Assembly (NCBI GenBank): GCA_028873815.1
Contig: JAPPNN010000011.1
Coordinates: forward strand, 25,024-89,023
Length of the DNA: 64,000 nucleotides
From: Gemmatimonadota bacterium
Lineage (GTDB): Bacteria > Gemmatimonadota > Gemmatimonadetes > Longimicrobiales > Gaopeijiaceae
Reading direction: 5' to 3'
The first letter of the stretch is position 1, and each line of letters starts with the position of its first letter. A model generated the notes under the pieces. It had not been told where the DNA came from. It was given only the letters and a program-made list of their open reading frames with translations, and ran no database searches. This document shows positions 19,835 through 57,082 of the stretch, one piece after another. The position numbers were made by a program, and so were the translations under genes.

Positions 19835-20272
19835 ATGACGCCGAAGTGTTGGGCCGTGTTCGTGGCGCGGGTGATCCTGGGGCTCATCTTCTTCGCCGCC
19901 GGATTCTGGAAGGTGTTCCGGCTGGGAGCGGTCGAGCACGCCCGCGGCCTGTTCGTGGAACCCTACGCTGCCAGCCCGTTGCCCGAATGGTCGCTCTGGT
20001 TCACCGGCGTCGTGGTCCCGTACGTGGAGCTCATCGGCGGCGCGCTCATGCTGGCCGGCTGGAAGCGCTTTGCGGCCGCCGTCGGGTTGGGGTGCGTCCT
20101 GATCCTGGTCACCTTCGGGCACCTCCTGGCCGAGCCGCTGTACGCGTTCCACACCCACGTGATCCCGCGCGTCCTGCTGCTGATCGTAGTGCTGGCGCTC
20201 TTCGAAGAGGACCGGTTGAGTCTGGATTCGTGGCTGGCCGGGAGACGCCAGGCTGCCTCGCCTACCCCATGA
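19835..20272 (+). CDS. DoxX-family membrane protein
   Basis: Start ATG 19835 follows GGAGAGG by about 8 bases; the frame is open to 19667 but that extension is basic and unlike the family. The 145-residue protein has four membrane helices typical of DoxX: VARVILGLIFFAAGFWKVF, SLWFTGVVVPYVELIGGALMLAG, a third around VGLGCVLILVTFGHLL, and VIPRVLLLIVVLALF. DoxX proteins are linked to quinone or thiol redox processes, though most are uncharacterised. Its stop overlaps the start of the MerB-like gene (ATGA), so the two are made together. Confidence 0.85.
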   Translation: MTPKCWAVFVARVILGLIFFAAGFWKVFRLGAVEHARGLFVEPYAASPLPEWSLWFTGVVVPYVELIGGALMLAGWKRFAAAVGLGCVLILVTFGHLLAEPLYAFHTHVIPRVLLLIVVLALFEEDRLSLDSWLAGRRQAASPTP

Positions 20273-20943
20273 CGCCGCCCGCCGAAGCCTTCGCGTGGCG
20301 CCTGCGCGGCCACCTCTACCGCCGGATCCGGGACACCGGGACGGTGCCTTCCCGCGGCGAGCTTGCCGCTGACCTCGGTGCGGCCGGCGCCGAGATCGAC
20401 CGGGCCCTTCGCTTCCTCGCCGACGCCTGCGTGCTGGCGCTGGACGACGACGGCGAAGTCTGGATGGCCCATCCCTTCTCGGCGGTGCCCACGCCGTACC
20501 GGGTGGAGACGTTGATCGGTGCGTACTGGGCGAACTGCGCCTGGGATGCGCTGGCGATTCCGGTGCTTTTCGGCACCGATGGCCGCACGCGCACCAGCTG
20601 CCCGCATTCGGGCACGCGTTTTGACCTGACCATGACGCGTGGCCGGGCCGGGCCAAGTGGGGCTGTCGTCCGCCTGGCCGTGCCCCTGCGCGACTTCTGG
20701 GACGACATCGGCTTCACCTGAAGCAACATCGTAGCCTTCCGGTCGGAGGGGGATGCCAGAGCGTGGGAGCGGGGGCGGGGCGGGGATCCCGGCGCCATCG
20801 TGCCGGTCGAGGTGCTGGGCGAGTTAAGCCGGGAGTGGTACGCGGGGCGGCTGGACGACGCATGGCGGCCGTATTCGGGCCAGACAAAGCAGGCGCTGCT
20901 AAGGGATGCGGGGTTGAGCGGGGAGTTCTGGGAGCTGGGGTGA
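20269..20943 (+). CDS. MerB-like (alkylmercury lyase family) selenoprotein with in-frame UGA
   Basis: Read through the UGA at 20719-20721, the frame is 224 residues with selenocysteine at position 151 and ends at TGA 20941. Residues 1-60 form a winged-helix-like N-terminus; the catalytic part has ANCAWDAL (Cys90, Asp93), SCPHSG (Cys111) and WDDIGFT-Sec-SNIVAFRS. In MerB of plasmid R831b the catalytic Cys96, Asp99 and Cys159 and the structural Cys117 occur in the same order with spacings 3, 18 and 42; here they are 3, 18 and 40. The 73 codons after the UGA contain no stop and encode a typical family tail (LSREWYAGRLDDAW, DAGLSGEFWELG). A hairpin with GGU in its loop follows the UGA at the right distance. 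MerB cleaves carbon-mercury bonds; many relatives have unknown roles. A simple nonsense mutation is the main alternative, weakened by the hairpin and the intact tail. Confidence 0.82.
20719..20757 (+). promoter_or_regulatory. SECIS-like hairpin after the MerB-like UGA
   Basis: After UGA (20719-20721) the stem CCUUC (20735-20739) pairs with GGAGG (20745-20749) around the loop CGGUC, which contains GGU at nucleotides 20-22 after the UGA. A lower stem CAUC (20727-20730) / GAUG (20752-20755) is separated by an internal loop. The GGU lies one base from the position seen in the formate dehydrogenase gene of this window (19-21). This is the expected site and loop for SelB binding in bacteria. Confidence 0.75.
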
Positions 20944-36607: not shown

Positions 36608-37192
36608 TCACACGTCCAGACCCCATTCGCTGATGAAAGTCTCCGGCTCCACCCCCAGGCCATCTGCGATCCGCGTGATGTAGTTGAAAAAGCCGACGAC
36701 CTGCACGGCGTCGTGGATCGCCCGGTCGCTCAATCCCACACGCCGCAGTCGGTCCAGGTCTGCCTCGGTCATGCCCGTCTGTTTGCGCGTCAGCCTGGTC
36801 GCGTAGTCGCACAGTGCCCGGTCTGTCTGGGCAAGCGGCGCCTCGGGCCAGTCGGCCACGATCCGGTGCACCAGCGCATCGCCCTCCTCATCGCCCATGC
36901 CCATTTCCTGGACCTCTGCCCGGAGGTCATGCGCGTGCGCCTGGGTTCAGTAGAAGCAATCCAGTTCGGCAGAGACCACCGTGGCGAGGAGTTCGCGCTG
37001 GAATCGGGACAGGGGAGACGGGCCGAACATGATGGCTCCATACTGTGCCATGGTGGTCCGCAGGACCGGCGCATTCAGGCTCATCACCTGCACGATGTTC
37101 CAGACGCGGCCGGAGCGCGCCACCGCCGCCTCGAACTCCCGTCGGAGGAGCCCGGTGGCCTCCGCCGGCGGGATTTCCTCGATCCAGGCCAT
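36608..37192 (-). CDS. AhpD-like (carboxymuconolactone decarboxylase family) selenoprotein, CxxU
   Basis: Read through UGA 36947-36949 the frame is 194 residues with Sec82. The N-terminus MAWIEEIPPAEATG and SLNAPVLRTTM are typical of peroxidase-related AhpD-fold proteins. The active site reads ELDCFY-Sec-TQAHAHD, matching ExxCxxCxxxH with the second Cys replaced by Sec. The part after the UGA (RIVADWPEAPLAQTDRAL, GLSDRAIHDAVQVVGFFNYI) is a normal AhpD C-terminus. Both parts are in the same frame with no other stop. AhpD-like Sec forms are known. It should be a thiol-dependent peroxidase or reductase partner. No clear ribosome site precedes ATG 37192, where a MITE-like element ends. Confidence 0.86.
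36911..36949 (-). promoter_or_regulatory. SECIS-like hairpin after the AhpD-like UGA
   Basis: On the minus strand, nucleotides 19-36 after the UGA form a perfect 6-base-pair stem GACCUC / GAGGUC with the loop CGGGCA (36911-36928). The GG pair in the loop lies about 26 nucleotides from the UGA, further than in the other two genes but within the range accepted for bacteria. The loop has GGG rather than GGU. Confidence 0.6.
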
Positions 37193-37197
37193 GGTTC

Positions 37198-51779: not shown

Positions 51780-52631
51780 ATGTGGGGCGCGATTATCGGG
51801 GATGTCGTCGGATCCGTCTACGAATGGGACAGGATCAAGACCAAGACGTTCGACCTCTTCCACTCGGAGGGTCACTTCACGGACGACTCGGTCTGCACGG
51901 CCGCGATCGCCGACATCCTCCTGCACGACCGCGGGGCTCCCGAGACGCTCCAGAAATGGTGCCGCCGGCATCCCGCATCCTACGGCGGCTGGTTCGTCGA
52001 CTGGATGTGGTCCGATCACCCCGAGCCCTACGGGAGCTTCGGCAACGGGGCGGCGATGCGCATTTCGCCGGCCGCGTTTCTGCACTACGACGACCTCGAC
52101 GCCGCGCTCGCCGCCTCCGACCGGCTCACGGAGATCACGCACAATCACCCGGAAGGGCTCAAGGGTGCGAGGGCGACCGTGCACGCGACCTGGCTGGCGC
52201 TCGAGGGCGAAGAGGCGCACGTCATCCGCAGGACCATAGCGGCCCGCTACCGTTACAACCTCGTGCGGTCGGTCGACGACATACGGACGTTCTACCGCTT
52301 CGACGAGACCTGCCAGAACACGGTCCCGGAGGCGATCACCTGCGCGCTCGAGTCGACCTGCTTCGAGGACGCGATTCGCAACGCCATCTCCCTGGGAGGC
52401 GACTCCGACACGGTCGCCGCCATCGCCGGTCCGATCGCGGAGGGCCTCCACGGCATCCCGGAAGGCATACAGCGGGTCGTGGAGGAGCGCTTCCTGGCCA
52501 AGGCGCCCGACATCGTGGAGGTGATGCACGAAATGTACGACGAGGTCGAGAGGCGCCGCGCCAGACAGCGGAAGCTCCGCCGGAAAAAGGCTACAAGGCC
52601 GCGAACCCGGTTTCCGGCCCGGTCTGGCTGA
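51780..52631 (+). CDS. ADP-ribosylglycohydrolase family protein
   Basis: A 283-residue protein of the DraG/ARH family. MWGAIIGDVVGSVYEW starts at ATG 51780, with AAGGGGG about 8 bases upstream; an ATG at 51774 is too close to that site. Metal ligands are FTDDSV near residue 36 and GGDSDTVAAIAGPIAEG near 200. It could remove ADP-ribose from a protein or small molecule. It has a basic C-terminal tail, and its last 41 bases overlap the end of fdhA on the other strand. Confidence 0.9.
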   Translation: MWGAIIGDVVGSVYEWDRIKTKTFDLFHSEGHFTDDSVCTAAIADILLHDRGAPETLQKWCRRHPASYGGWFVDWMWSDHPEPYGSFGNGAAMRISPAAFLHYDDLDAALAASDRLTEITHNHPEGLKGARATVHATWLALEGEEAHVIRRTIAARYRYNLVRSVDDIRTFYRFDETCQNTVPEAITCALESTCFEDAIRNAISLGGDSDTVAAIAGPIAEGLHGIPEGIQRVVEERFLAKAPDIVEVMHEMYDEVERRRARQRKLRRKKATRPRTRFPARSG

Positions 52632-55356
52632 GCGCCGGCGGAGGGCCCACGGGCTTCAACGCCACCGGACACGCCTTGAGCGCGGCCGTCTGCGTCACCG
52701 GATCGTAGCCGCCCCCGGTCAGTACGTTCACCGGCACGTCCTCGAAGGCGAACGACGCGAAGACCGTCCCCTTCGGCGACTTGGTGGTCCCGTGCACCTT
52801 CACGTACACGCAGCCCCGGGGATTGCTCAGCTCGGCATACCCGCCGTCCTCCAGCCCCAGCCGCACGATGTCGTCGGGATGCACCTCCAGCGTCTCCTCC
52901 GACAGCAGGTAGTCGATCCCGTCCGAACGCCCGGTCTGCGTCCGCGTGTGGTACTGGGGCAGCCGCCGGCCGGTCGTGAGCCACATCGGGTACTCGTCCG
53001 AAAGCGTCTCCTCGGGGTCGCGATACTCCAGCATCTTGAAGATCCCGCGCCCGTTCTCGAAGCGCTCCTCGTGCAGCCTCGGCGTCCCCGGGTGGTCGCG
53101 GGCGGGCACGGGCCACTGGTACTCGCCCCGGTCGATCCGGTCCCAGTCGAGGCCGTTGTAGAGGGGTGAGAGGGCGCAGAGCTCGTTGAAGACCTCCTTG
53201 GCGGACCCGAAATCGAAGCCTTGCCAGCCCATTCGCCGAGCGAGCTGCGAGAGGATCCACCAGTCGGGCTTCGCTTCGCCTGGCGGCGGCACCGCCGCAC
53301 GCAACCGCTGCACGCGGCGCTCGGTGTTGGTGCAGACGCCGTCGGTCTCGGCCCAGGCCGTGGCCGGGAACACCACATCGGCCACCTTGGCCGTCTCGGT
53401 CATGAAGATGTCGATCACGACCAGGCAGTCGAGGCTCTTGAGCGCGTGTTCGCAGTGGTGGCGGTCCGGGTCGGTGACCAGCGTGTTCTCGCCGTCGATG
53501 ATCATCGCGTGGATGCCGTCGCCGCACAGGTCCAGCGCCGTGACCTTGGTCATGCCCGTCTCCAGGTCGACCTTGCGCCCGTACGCCCGGTGGAACTTCG
53601 CCTGGTGGGCGGGATCGGTGACGGTCTGGAAGCCGGGGTAGTTGTTGGGCAGCGCGCCCGCGTCGCCGGCGCCCTGGATGTTGTTCTGCCCGCGCATGGG
53701 GTTCACCCCCGTGCCCTCGCGGCCAAGGTTGCCGGTCATCAGGGCCAGGTTGCAGAGGCTCTGCACGTTGTCGACGCCGCAGATGTGCTCGGTGACCCCG
53801 ACCGTGTAGTAGATGGCGCCCCGGTCGGCCCCGCCGTACAGCAGCGCCGCCTTTTCGATGTCCTCGGGGTCGCACTCGCTGATCCCGGACGCCCACTCCG
53901 GGGTGTACTGCGCGACGTGCTGCATGAAGTCCTCGCCGTGGGCCGTGCGCTCGTCGATGAAGGCCTGGTCCATCAGCCCCTCCCGGGCGATCACATGCGC
54001 CATCGCGAGCAGCAGCGACACGTCGGACCCCACGCGGATGGGCAGGTGCACGTCGGCGATCTCGGCCAGCCCGATCCGGCGCGGGTCCGCCACGATCATC
54101 TTCGCGCCGCGCGCGAGCGCCCGCTTGAGCCGTGTGGCGGCCACGGGGTGGCACTCGGTCATGTTGGTGCCGATGCAGAAGATCACATCGGGCTTGTCCA
54201 TGTCGGCGAGAGGGTTCGACATCGCCCCTCTTCCGATTGTTGCCGCCAGACCGGCGACTGTGGGGGCGTGTCAGGCACGGCTGCAGTTGTCGATGTGGTT
54301 CGTCCCCAATCCCGCCCTGATGAAGCGTTGCATCATGTAGGCGGCCTCGTGGGGAGCGCGTCCGGAGGCGATCCCGTAGACGGCGCGGCGCCCGTGGTCC
54401 CTCACCACCTTGCGCAGCTTGTCGGCGGCGAAGTCCAGCGCCTCGTCCCACGACGCGGGGCGCAGTTCCCCGGTCTCGTCGTCGCGCACGAAGGGCGTGG
54501 CGAGACGGTCGGGATGGTGCACAAAGTCGAAGGCGAACTGGCCCTTCACGCACAGCGCCCCTTCGTTCGCCGGTCCGTCCATCGCCGGCAACACGCCCAC
54601 GATCTTCTCCCCGCGCGTCATCACGTCGACCGAGCAGCCGACGCCGCAGTAGGGACAGACGGTGCGGGTCGTCTCGGTCTCGCCCGGAACGTCCCTGTTG
54701 GCGAGCGCCTTGAGGTCTCCCAGCGCACCCGTCGGACAGGTCTGGATGCACTGCCCGCAGAAGGTGCACGCCGAGTCCTTGAGGTGGCCGCCGAACTCGG
54801 TGGTGATCTGCGTGTGGAAGCCGCGATTCATCACCGAGATCGCGTAGTCCCCCTCCTGCTCCGCGCACACGCGCACGCAGCGATAGCACGAGATGCAGTT
54901 CTCGTAGTCGCGCTTGATGAAGGGGTTGTCGTCGTCCGGCCGGCTCGTGCCCGACGTGGCGCCCGCGAAGCGGCCGGTACGGGCATCGTAGCGGTCGAGC
55001 AACTCGGCCATTTCCTGCGACGCGTAGCCGTGCATCGGGTCCACGTCGGCGTCGCGGTTCTCCGACGCGACCATCTCCATGAGGATCCGGCGCTGCACCT
55101 CGATGCTTGCGGTTCGCGTGCGCACGACCATGCCGGGGTCGGCCTGCATCGTGCACGACGCCACCGGGTTGCGTGCGCCTTCCAGTTCGACGACGCACAG
55201 CCGGCAGCCGCCGAAGGGTTCGAGCCGGGGGTCGTAGCAGAGCGTCGGGATGTCCCTGCCGTGGCGTTCGGCCACCTCATAGAGCGTCTCGCCCCGAGTG
55301 AAGGCGACCTTCTCCCCGTCAAGGGTCAGGGTCAGTGCCGCACCGTTGTGCCTCAT
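52591..55356 (-). CDS. fdhA: Formate dehydrogenase catalytic subunit, selenocysteine form
   Basis: With UGA 54271-54273 read as Sec362 this is one 921-residue Mo/W-bis-MGD enzyme. N-terminal [2Fe-2S] domain (Cys40, 51, 54, 68), a His-containing Cys-poor linker, two [4Fe-4S] motifs (Cys154/157/160/164 and Cys197/200/203/207) and the catalytic-domain cluster (CPYCGVGC, 234-241). The active site reads IDNCSRA-Sec-HAPTVAG, the classic FDH motif, followed by GTNMTECHP and the MGD-binding C-terminus. Partnered with a NuoEF-like subunit four bases upstream, it is of the soluble NAD-dependent type. It oxidises formate or reduces CO2. Read as two genes it would be wrongly split at 54271. Confidence 0.95.
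54224..54273 (-). promoter_or_regulatory. SECIS element after the fdhA UGA
   Basis: After UGA the sequence folds with GUCGCC / GGCGGC closing the loop GGUCU at nucleotides 19-23. The E. coli fdhF element has the same loop sequence GGUCU starting at the same distance. A lower stem GCCCC / GGGGC joins nucleotides 4-8 and 43-47. This matches the known bacterial SelB-binding hairpin closely. Confidence 0.9.
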
Positions 55357-55360
55357 CGTG

Positions 55361-57082
55361 TCACCCCTTCCTGGGACGCGCGCTCACGGCGGGACCCGGC
55401 GGGGCCCCCACATGCGCGCGGATCCGGTCCGGGAAATAACGGATCAGGCTCTCCGTAAGCAAGGGCGCGGCCTGTCCGAGCCCGCACGCGCTCGTCTTTT
55501 TCATGACATCGTTCAAGTCGCTCACTTCGTCGACCCAGGCCTCGACGGTACGGGGGCCGCTGCCCTCCAGTCGCTCCACCAGACGCTGGCACCCGATCCG
55601 GCACGGGAAGCACTTCCCGCACGACTCCTCGGCGAAGAATTCCATCGATTCGCGGGTGACCCGGATCATGTCGCGCGAGTCGTCGAACACCATGATCCCG
55701 CCCGCGCCCAGGAAACTGCCCTTCGACCGGATCGAGGGCTCGTCGAGCGTGACGTCCAGGTCCGTGCCCGCCAGGAAGCCGCCCGACAGACCCGCCATGG
55801 TGACGGCCTGGAAGGAGCGTCCCGGCGGCGCACCTCCCGCCCAGCCGTTGAGCAGCTCCATGAGCGGCAGCCCGATGGGGACCTCGTAGTTCCCCGGCTG
55901 CGCCACGTCGCCCGACAGGCTGATCACCTTGGTGCCTGCGTGATCGCCGAGTCCCAGGTCCCGGTACCACTCCGCGCCGTGCACGAGAATGGGCGGGACG
56001 GAGACAAGGGTTTCCACGTTGTTAACGACGGTGGGGAGGTTTTCATAGCCGTGCGTGACGGGGAAGGGGGGGCGGTTCCTGGGGAACGGGTGCTTGCCCT
56101 CCAGCGAATTGAGCAGGGAGGTCTCCTCGCCGCAGATGTAGGCGCCGGCCCCGCGCCGCACCATCAGGTCGAACGAGAAGCCGGAGCCAAGGATGCCGTC
56201 GCCGACCAGGCCGGCCGCCGCCGCTTCGGCGATCGCGCCCTCCAGGATGTCCAGCGTCTCGGGGTACTCGTAGCGCAGGTAGATGAAGCCGCGCTCGGCA
56301 CCCGTCGCGTAGGCCGCGATCGCCATCCCCTCGATCAGTGCGTGGGGGTCGTGATCCATGAGCAGGCGGTCCTTGAAGCAGCCGGGCTCTCCCTCGTCCG
56401 CGTTGCAGACGATGGTCCTGGGAGTGCCGTCCGCCTCCGCCACCGCACGCCACTTCCGGCCTGTCGGGAAACAGGCGCCACCCCTGCCGGCAAGGCCGCT
56501 GCGGTCCACGATCCCGATCACTCCGTCGGGAGTCCTTCCGGTGACTGCCCCCGTCAGCGCCTCGTAGCCACCCTGTGCGCGGTATCCCGCCAGGGCCGCG
56601 CGCCCGGGGTCGCGGATCCCCGCGAAGACGCATTCCTCGACGCCCGCGGGAGCGGGGGCCGGCAGTGGCGACGGCCCGGTCACGAGACTGCCCGCAGTCT
56701 TTCCGGTCAACACCGTTCGACCATGGATCACGGGTACGGGCTGGTCGCACCTGCCCGGGCACGGCATCGCGTGCGGGTCGTGTCCGGCCGCCCGCAGGCT
56801 GGCGATCAGGACATCGGAGCCCCGCATGCTGCAGACCGGTCCGTTACACACCCTGGGCCGTTCGGCTCCGCCCTCCTCGCGGGAAAAGTGGTGGTAGAAG
56901 GTGACGGTCCCGAAAAGGTCCGCCAGCGGAATGCGCAGCCCCTTCGATACCGACCGCAACGCCGGCTCCGACAGATACCCATCGCGTGCGTGGAAGGCGT
57001 GGAGCAGCGGCAGCAGGGGTGCCGGCTCGTCCTTCCAGCGCGCAATAAGGGCTTCGTCTGTCGGGTTCGGCATCCGGGCCAC
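55361..57082 (-). CDS. NAD-dependent formate dehydrogenase NuoE/NuoF-type subunit
   Basis: A 573-residue fusion. Residues 1 to about 130 are NuoE-like with a thioredoxin-fold [2Fe-2S] site (VCNGPVCSMRGS, CPGRCDQPVPV); the rest is NuoF-like with the FMN/NADH motif GRGGACFPTGRKW, CNADEGEPGCFKDR, GAGAYICGEETSLL and the [4Fe-4S] site SCGKCFPCRIGC with a distant Cys in SACGLGQ. It should pass electrons between FdhA and NAD+. The gene heads the fdh operon, four bases before fdhA. Confidence 0.92.
   Translation of the reverse strand: MARMPNPTDEALIARWKDEPAPLLPLLHAFHARDGYLSEPALRSVSKGLRIPLADLFGTVTFYHHFSREEGGAERPRVCNGPVCSMRGSDVLIASLRAAGHDPHAMPCPGRCDQPVPVIHGRTVLTGKTAGSLVTGPSPLPAPAPAGVEECVFAGIRDPGRAALAGYRAQGGYEALTGAVTGRTPDGVIGIVDRSGLAGRGGACFPTGRKWRAVAEADGTPRTIVCNADEGEPGCFKDRLLMDHDPHALIEGMAIAAYATGAERGFIYLRYEYPETLDILEGAIAEAAAAGLVGDGILGSGFSFDLMVRRGAGAYICGEETSLLNSLEGKHPFPRNRPPFPVTHGYENLPTVVNNVETLVSVPPILVHGAEWYRDLGLGDHAGTKVISLSGDVAQPGNYEVPIGLPLMELLNGWAGGAPPGRSFQAVTMAGLSGGFLAGTDLDVTLDEPSIRSKGSFLGAGGIMVFDDSRDMIRVTRESMEFFAEESCGKCFPCRIGCQRLVERLEGSGPRTVEAWVDEVSDLNDVMKKTSACGLGQAAPLLTESLIRYFPDRIRAHVGAPPGPAVSARPRKG

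Follow-up and report, generated by a model that had tools for sequence, protein, structure and literature searches.

The MerB-like gene that begins at position 20269 of this stretch raises the question of whether a UGA in the middle of its frame ends a short protein or encodes selenocysteine (Sec) in the active site of a longer one. The stretch, referred to here as the window, comprises 64,000 nucleotides of contig JAPPNN010000011.1 from a Gemmatimonadota bacterium, and the positions of all features are collected in Table 1.

A MerB-like frame interrupted by UGA

From its ATG, the frame runs through 150 codons to a TGA at codon 151, continues for 73 sense codons, and closes at a second TGA. 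This confirms the initial annotation, which had described a 150-residue product under normal decoding and, beyond it, a stop-free extension encoding a family C-terminus. The read-through protein matches Pfam MerB (PF03243) with 92 bits against a cut-off of 27 over residues 70-191, so that the match crosses codon 151, with 33 residues lying C-terminal to it. When aligned by HMMER to the MerB chain 3f2g, Cys96, Asp99, Cys117, and Cys159 of MerB pair with Cys90, Asp93, Cys111, and codon 151, respectively, which places the UGA at the position of Cys159, as had been proposed. An essential role of Cys96, Asp99, and Cys159 in MerB is stressed in the available part of an earlier account (PMC8261052). 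A structural model of the read-through protein has a pLDDT of 96.5, with MerB and MerB2 as its best fold matches.

Table 1. Features of the MerB-like locus and further selenoprotein genes in the window
Feature	Position	Strand	Remarks
DoxX-like membrane protein	19835..20272	+	end overlaps the MerB-like start (ATGA)
MerB-like gene, predicted to contain Sec	20269..20943	+	224 residues with UGA 20719 as Sec; stop TGA 20941-20943
Cys90 codon (= MerB Cys96)	20536..20538	+	61/61 rows, window's phylum and window
Asp93 codon (= MerB Asp99)	20545..20547	+	52/61 rows (window's phylum and window), including all 37 U rows
Cys111 codon (= MerB Cys117)	20599..20601	+	44/61 rows, window's phylum and window
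UGA, predicted selenocysteine 151 (MerB Cys159 position)	20719..20721	+	alignment, relatives, tRNA-Sec match
Predicted bacterial SECIS hairpin	20735..20750	+	6 pairs; apical loop GGUC 20741-20744
AhpD-like peroxidase-related protein, CFYU	36611-37195, UGA 36949	-	TIGR01926 119.6 bits, cut-off 81.8
Formate dehydrogenase alpha subunit (FdhA)	52594-55383, UGA 54273	-	TIGR01591 730 bits, cut-off 666

The UGA column in relatives

Within the phylum, 298 genomes were searched and the MerB family was found in 62; of the 68 hits lying beyond the window, 60 were fetched, the other eight being short and partial. Together with the window these give 61 rows, in which the UGA column holds U in 37 and Cys in 23; the remaining row (L072) lies close to the end of a contig, is out of frame, and is not comparable. 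Further in-frame stops are rare in these matches: L075 has a TAG at another place, and the degenerate L071 has an additional TGA. A scan of named records, from which the best 80 of 248 relatives were kept, returned UGA in 75, UAG in 4, and a contig that ends before the column in 1. The initial annotation had made its reading depend on homologues with Cys or UGA at this column, and the relatives hold Cys, UGA, or UAG. Because the UGA column is shared among them, chance or a sequencing error at UGA 20719, the latter having been named as a possible refutation, is excluded.

Database proteins give the same column as gene callers see it. Among the best 120 of 1405 homologues, 106 are short and 14 are long, and 105 of the 106 short proteins stop exactly one residue before the column codon. 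Twelve of the 14 long homologues could be read at the column, where six have Cys, four have Trp (P0002, P0004, P0005, and P0007), and one each has Gly or Arg (P0003 and P0006), the last two counting against the Sec reading. In P0010 and P0011, the MerB domain is joined to a DNA-binding domain of the LuxR/CsgD type, and P0010 has Cys at the column. A plasmid search returned four distant records, none of which covers 80% of the query.

UAG codons and tRNA-Sec anticodons

The four UAG genes (L138, L140, L162, and L173) all belong to Geodermatophilaceae, namely Modestobacter, Geodermatophilus (2), and Blastococcus. A tRNA-Sec above the Rfam cut-off is present in 8/8 genomes tested, four with UAG and four with UGA, and its anticodon as read by ARAGORN is CTA in 4/4 UAG genomes and TCA in 5/5 others, these being the window genome and the four UGA genomes. 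ARAGORN labels the CTA tRNAs Pyl on account of the anticodon, while Rfam identifies them as tRNA-Sec. The tRNA-Sec matches ranking next in the UAG genomes were fetched as well; 5/5 were Ser or Tyr tRNAs, and on this basis no second, UCA-reading tRNA-Sec was found there. With UAG accompanied by CTA and UGA by TCA, the column codon tracks the Sec codon of the genomes exactly, which we regard as the strongest single evidence for a predicted Sec at this position.

UAG-coded Sec in Geodermatophilaceae is known for FDH, UGSC, and AhpC proteins (PMC5330540), and the four MerB-like genes share with those selenoproteins both a UAG Sec column and a CUA tRNA-Sec. No MerB-like protein is named among the UAG-coded selenoproteins in the available part of that article, so these genes would add one family to them. 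The UAG/CUA match also serves as an independent natural control of a kind that few predicted selenoproteins have.

Sec machinery and other selenoprotein genes

All four genes of the Sec machinery, whose presence the initial annotation had made a point of inquiry, occur in the window genome: selA (494 bits), selB (306), tRNA-Sec or selC (79.7), and selD (381). According to ARAGORN the window contains no tRNA, and selC lies on another contig. SelD of this genome is probably itself a selenoprotein, given one in-frame TGA (L197, G000:C5:31565-32488). Counted over all 298 genomes, selB is present in 37/37 genomes with the UGA form versus 182/261 others (p=5.6e-6, relatedness ignored); a narrower selB search took in 57 of the 62 genomes in which the MerB family was found. 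The two further selenoprotein genes previously noticed in the window were identified as FdhA, where the in-frame UGA lies in NCSRAUHAPTVAGL, and an AhpD-like CFYU protein (Table 1). Two MerA-family hits below cut-off (G116:C26 and G148:C101) have one in-frame TGA each and are possible further selenoproteins.

A constrained hairpin after the codon

Bacterial SECIS elements are hairpins placed just after the UGA, with a G in the apical loop. A hairpin with GGU in its apical loop, noted previously, was recovered in the window with the loop GGUC, which begins 19 nt after the UGA, and it fits this rule of distance and loop. Codon use across the element is strongly constrained. In 92 distinct regions, drawn from 116 in which named and unnamed loci overlap, Phe is TTC in 91/91, Arg is CGG in 91/92, and Ser is TCG in 87/87, versus 81% TTC, 31% CGG, and 38% TCG elsewhere in those genes, and the constrained codons build UUCC-GGUC-GGAA, with further pairs outside. 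RNAalifold, applied to 39 regions (the window and 38 out of 75 distinct named ones), found six pairs. In two of these both partners vary, and columns 14-29 show UA and CG pairs.

Measures of stability are less uniform. Compared with synonymous recodings, the window hairpin is only mildly more stable (z -0.93, rank 0.21), and over 91 regions the mean z is -1.56 with a median rank of 0.09; the recoding and shuffle tests were run without L142, which has a deletion. The outer four pairs reach 0.632 versus 0.598 in shuffles, where the highest shuffle is 0.668, so that there is no clear excess. When folded as 48-nt stretches, the examples inspected often have another structure as their minimum-energy fold. 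At gathering scores, Rfam gave no match anywhere in the window and is therefore neutral on the hairpin.

Signs of translation beyond the codon

Downstream of the codon, frame 0 stays free of stops over 66 codons in 79/80 sequences, versus 17/80 for frame +1 and 38/80 for frame +2. In 281 pairwise comparisons the median pN/pS is 0.38 upstream of the codon and 0.44 downstream of the hairpin, which supports continued purifying selection past the UGA. Across the 28 Sec forms of alignment A1 (which excludes L045, L049, L054, L056, L057, L063, L066, L067, and L071), Phe157, Arg158, Glu160, Trp166, Trp190, Tyr191, Gly215, Leu216, and Trp221 are invariant.

A column of Cys, UGA, or UAG, the tRNA-Sec anticodons, the conserved hairpin, the Sec machinery, and the purifying selection after the UGA together support Sec at codon 151, which we predict from these genomic data with near certainty. 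None of the outcomes that the initial annotation had listed against its proposal, whether a column lacking Cys and UGA, missing machinery, or a sequence error, arose. Two other readings of the codon can be weighed on the same data. Were UGA 20719 a true stop or a sequence error, the gene would encode a 150-residue fragment or be a pseudogene; the database calls that end there speak for this, but the open frame, the pN/pS values, and the conserved residues beyond the codon speak against it, as do the recurrence of this column in separately assembled genomes from several phyla and the UAG codons paired with CUA tRNA-Sec in Geodermatophilaceae, and we consider it highly improbable. Still less credible is the decoding of UGA as another amino acid such as Trp through a changed code or a suppressor. 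The four database proteins with Trp at the column are what such a reading would give, and also what a table-4 gene caller prints, yet the MerB-like gene itself ends in UGA, relatives that lack a stop in the 61-row phylum set carry Cys and not Trp, and UAG appears exactly where tRNA-Sec is CUA. If Sec is indeed inserted, the genes described here would add a large misannotated selenoprotein family with Sec at a known catalytic residue, and the consequences of exchanging Sec and Cys could be tested directly in an enzyme fold that is already well characterised.

Relation to MerB, MerB2, and SaoL

By profile and predicted fold, the window protein belongs to the same superfamily as the organomercurial lyases MerB and MerB2 (PDB 5c17, 3f0o; PF03243). 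It matches Cys96 and Asp99 of MerB, whereas at Cys159 it has a predicted Sec, with selenium in place of sulphur. Its score against the NCBIfam MerB equivalog is 48.6 bits, below the cut-off of 193, and it reaches the cut-off of no NCBIfam model (June 2026 models).

The initial annotation pointed to no described Sec form of MerB. SaoL, however, is a MerB-like selenoprotein already known, with the motif CU and the same accession in the available parts of two articles (PMC13188914, PMC9312934). There, SaoL is described as a MerB-like organometallic lyase, and the Sec-assisted organometallic (SAO) operon as one of six selenoprotein genes. Sec in a MerB-like protein thus has a precedent, yet SaoL constitutes a different family. 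Against the SaoL model NF040728 (cut-off 140), the window protein scores 29 bits, and the family as a whole scores 29-64 bits where it matches; of seven Sec rows compared, six match at 35.5-63.9 bits and one gives no match. The CU motif of SaoL contrasts with TU here, Thr preceding Sec in 28/28 Sec forms (A1), and, unlike SaoL, the MerB-like family has about 70 residues after Sec. SaoL sits in a multi-selenoprotein operon; the neighbours of the Sec MerB-like genes differ between families. An ungapped extrapolation puts the window Sec at profile position 158 of 159 in NF040728, from which the Sec of SaoL may lie at or next to the same site.

A literature search, in the parts of the sources available, found only SaoL as a Sec MerB-like form. 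An earlier description may exist elsewhere, although the lack of any NCBIfam model that the window protein satisfies speaks against one. The available parts of PMC12013277 and PMC5029168 contain no MerB or mercury word, and that of PMC2398784 has only MerP and a transport protein as mercury-related words. On its model scores, the residue before Sec, and the length of its tail, we place the predicted Sec MerB-like family apart from SaoL, as a distinct family of the same general kind (MerB-like selenoproteins) and not as a new kind.

Gene neighbours and MerA

Six further loci from the window's genus have a DoxX-like gene near the MerB-like gene, directly next to it in three and at about 1.3 kb in three, and so does L109, from a record titled Acidobacteria. 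As it is a neighbour only in the window's genus and in L109 among the loci compared, the DoxX-like protein was set aside as a functional partner. In genera g7 and g22 of the window's family, UbiA-type and peptidase S58 genes lie just ahead of the Sec-MerB gene in the same orientation, and behind come genes for CoA-transferase, enoyl-CoA hydratase, and a TRAP transporter; genus g12 shares part of this arrangement. In L065 (1247-3335 and 4001-8999), Sec-MerB begins about 10 nt after the UbiA-type/peptidase S58 genes, a possible operon. No link of the UbiA-type, S58, CoA-transferase, enoyl-CoA hydratase, or TRAP genes to mercury was found, and no mer gene or mercury operon was seen near the Sec MerB-like genes among the neighbours examined, for which 18 proteins were scanned with Pfam. 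Outside the window's family, no neighbour is shared among the loci compared, except for the DoxX-like gene in L109.

With five candidates considered per genome, MerA exceeds its cut-off in 4/37 Sec-form genomes versus 21/261 others (p=0.53), and the best MerA score in the window genome is 375 bits, below the 454 required. Classic MerB, by contrast, occurs with MerA in 7/17 genomes (p=1.4e-4, likewise five candidates per genome); it is linked to MerA, while the Sec MerB-like form is without such a link.

Predicted function and mechanism

Our preferred reading, which we hold to be probable, is that the gene encodes a full-length MerB-family protein with Sec at the Cys159 position, likely cleaving carbon-mercury or similar carbon-metal bonds. 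Granted the Sec, carbon-metal cleavage is itself a moderately favoured prediction, and since each catalytic residue of MerB has its counterpart here once Sec stands in for Cys159, cleavage of the C-Hg bond is the simplest form of it. The analysis shows the open frame, the column, the agreement of codon and anticodon, the constraint on the hairpin, and the predicted fold; Sec insertion, substrate, chemistry, and metal release are extrapolated from these. We infer that, in vivo, SelB and tRNA-Sec(UCA) would recognise the GGUC hairpin after the UGA and insert Sec151. The metal of an organomercurial substrate would then be held by Cys90 and the Sec151 selenolate; protonation of the carbon by Asp93 would let the hydrocarbon depart, and small thiols would afterwards take off the metal, as computed for MerB in the available part of PMC4525700. 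In the same account, Hg is freed from MerB by the removal of two ligands, of which Cys159 is one. With a selenolate, binding of Hg should be tighter, and this could make the attack faster and the release slower. As possible functions, the initial annotation had suggested tight Hg binding, C-Hg cleavage, or another redox reaction.

The same selenoprotein may instead have another job, with Sec151 and Cys90 serving in thiol/selenol redox, in soft-metal binding or storage, or in reactions with organometals other than those of mercury, as has been suggested for the SAO system to which SaoL belongs, a plausible alternative that we lean against. A role in redox or on a non-mercury organometal would be compatible with neighbours that vary by lineage and, among those examined, include no mer gene, and with the missing MerA link, and SaoL, from an operon with six selenoprotein genes, is after all called a MerB-like organometallic lyase in what is available of its descriptions. 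A plain redox pair, however, would need no Asp93, the counterpart of the protonating Asp99 of MerB, which is kept in 75/75 UGA rows among the best 80 of 248 named relatives, and the best fold matches are to MerB and MerB2. Were the preferred reading, carbon-metal cleavage by a Sec MerB, to hold, a single active site would bring together the chemistry of selenium and that of mercury, and surveys of demethylating microbes that use full-length merB gene calls would probably miss the Sec genes.

Evolution of the predicted Sec branch

In a quick tree of 107 rows (excluding L110, L113, and L135), classic MerB lies outside, and the Sec group includes two Cys subgroups. Sec and Cys are distributed on it with three changes; the nesting of the Cys subgroups suggests that Sec is old and was lost twice, although support for the deep branches of this tree is limited (SH-aLRT about 80-90). 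Going by their record titles, Sec rows come from Gemmatimonadota, Acidobacteriota, Chloroflexota, Actinomycetota, Fidelibacterota, and Planctomycetota, together with a KSB1 record, such phylum labels being titles that can be wrong, many of them on binned genomes. A broader reading, offered tentatively and only slightly more doubtful to us than credible, is of a Sec MerB branch in at least six phyla by title, in which the selenolate would break carbon-metal bonds in a non-redox reaction without MerA; Sec would be ancestral and the Cys forms later losses, one of them with a change of Asp99 to Cys. As part of this reading, the branch would have stayed hidden from mercury-gene surveys, since automated annotation truncates almost all of the listed copies at the Sec codon.

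The L076 Cys subgroup has Cys for Asp93 in its seven rows from the Gemmatimonadota phylum (L076, L078, L080, L082, L087, L091, and L092), mostly in the motif NCAWC..YTCSTM, and with Cys at the Asp99 position the acid of MerB is lost in this subgroup where Sec is Cys. Two records titled Gammaproteobacteria, L102 and L108, are placed among the Gemmatimonadota rows and are likely mislabelled bins.
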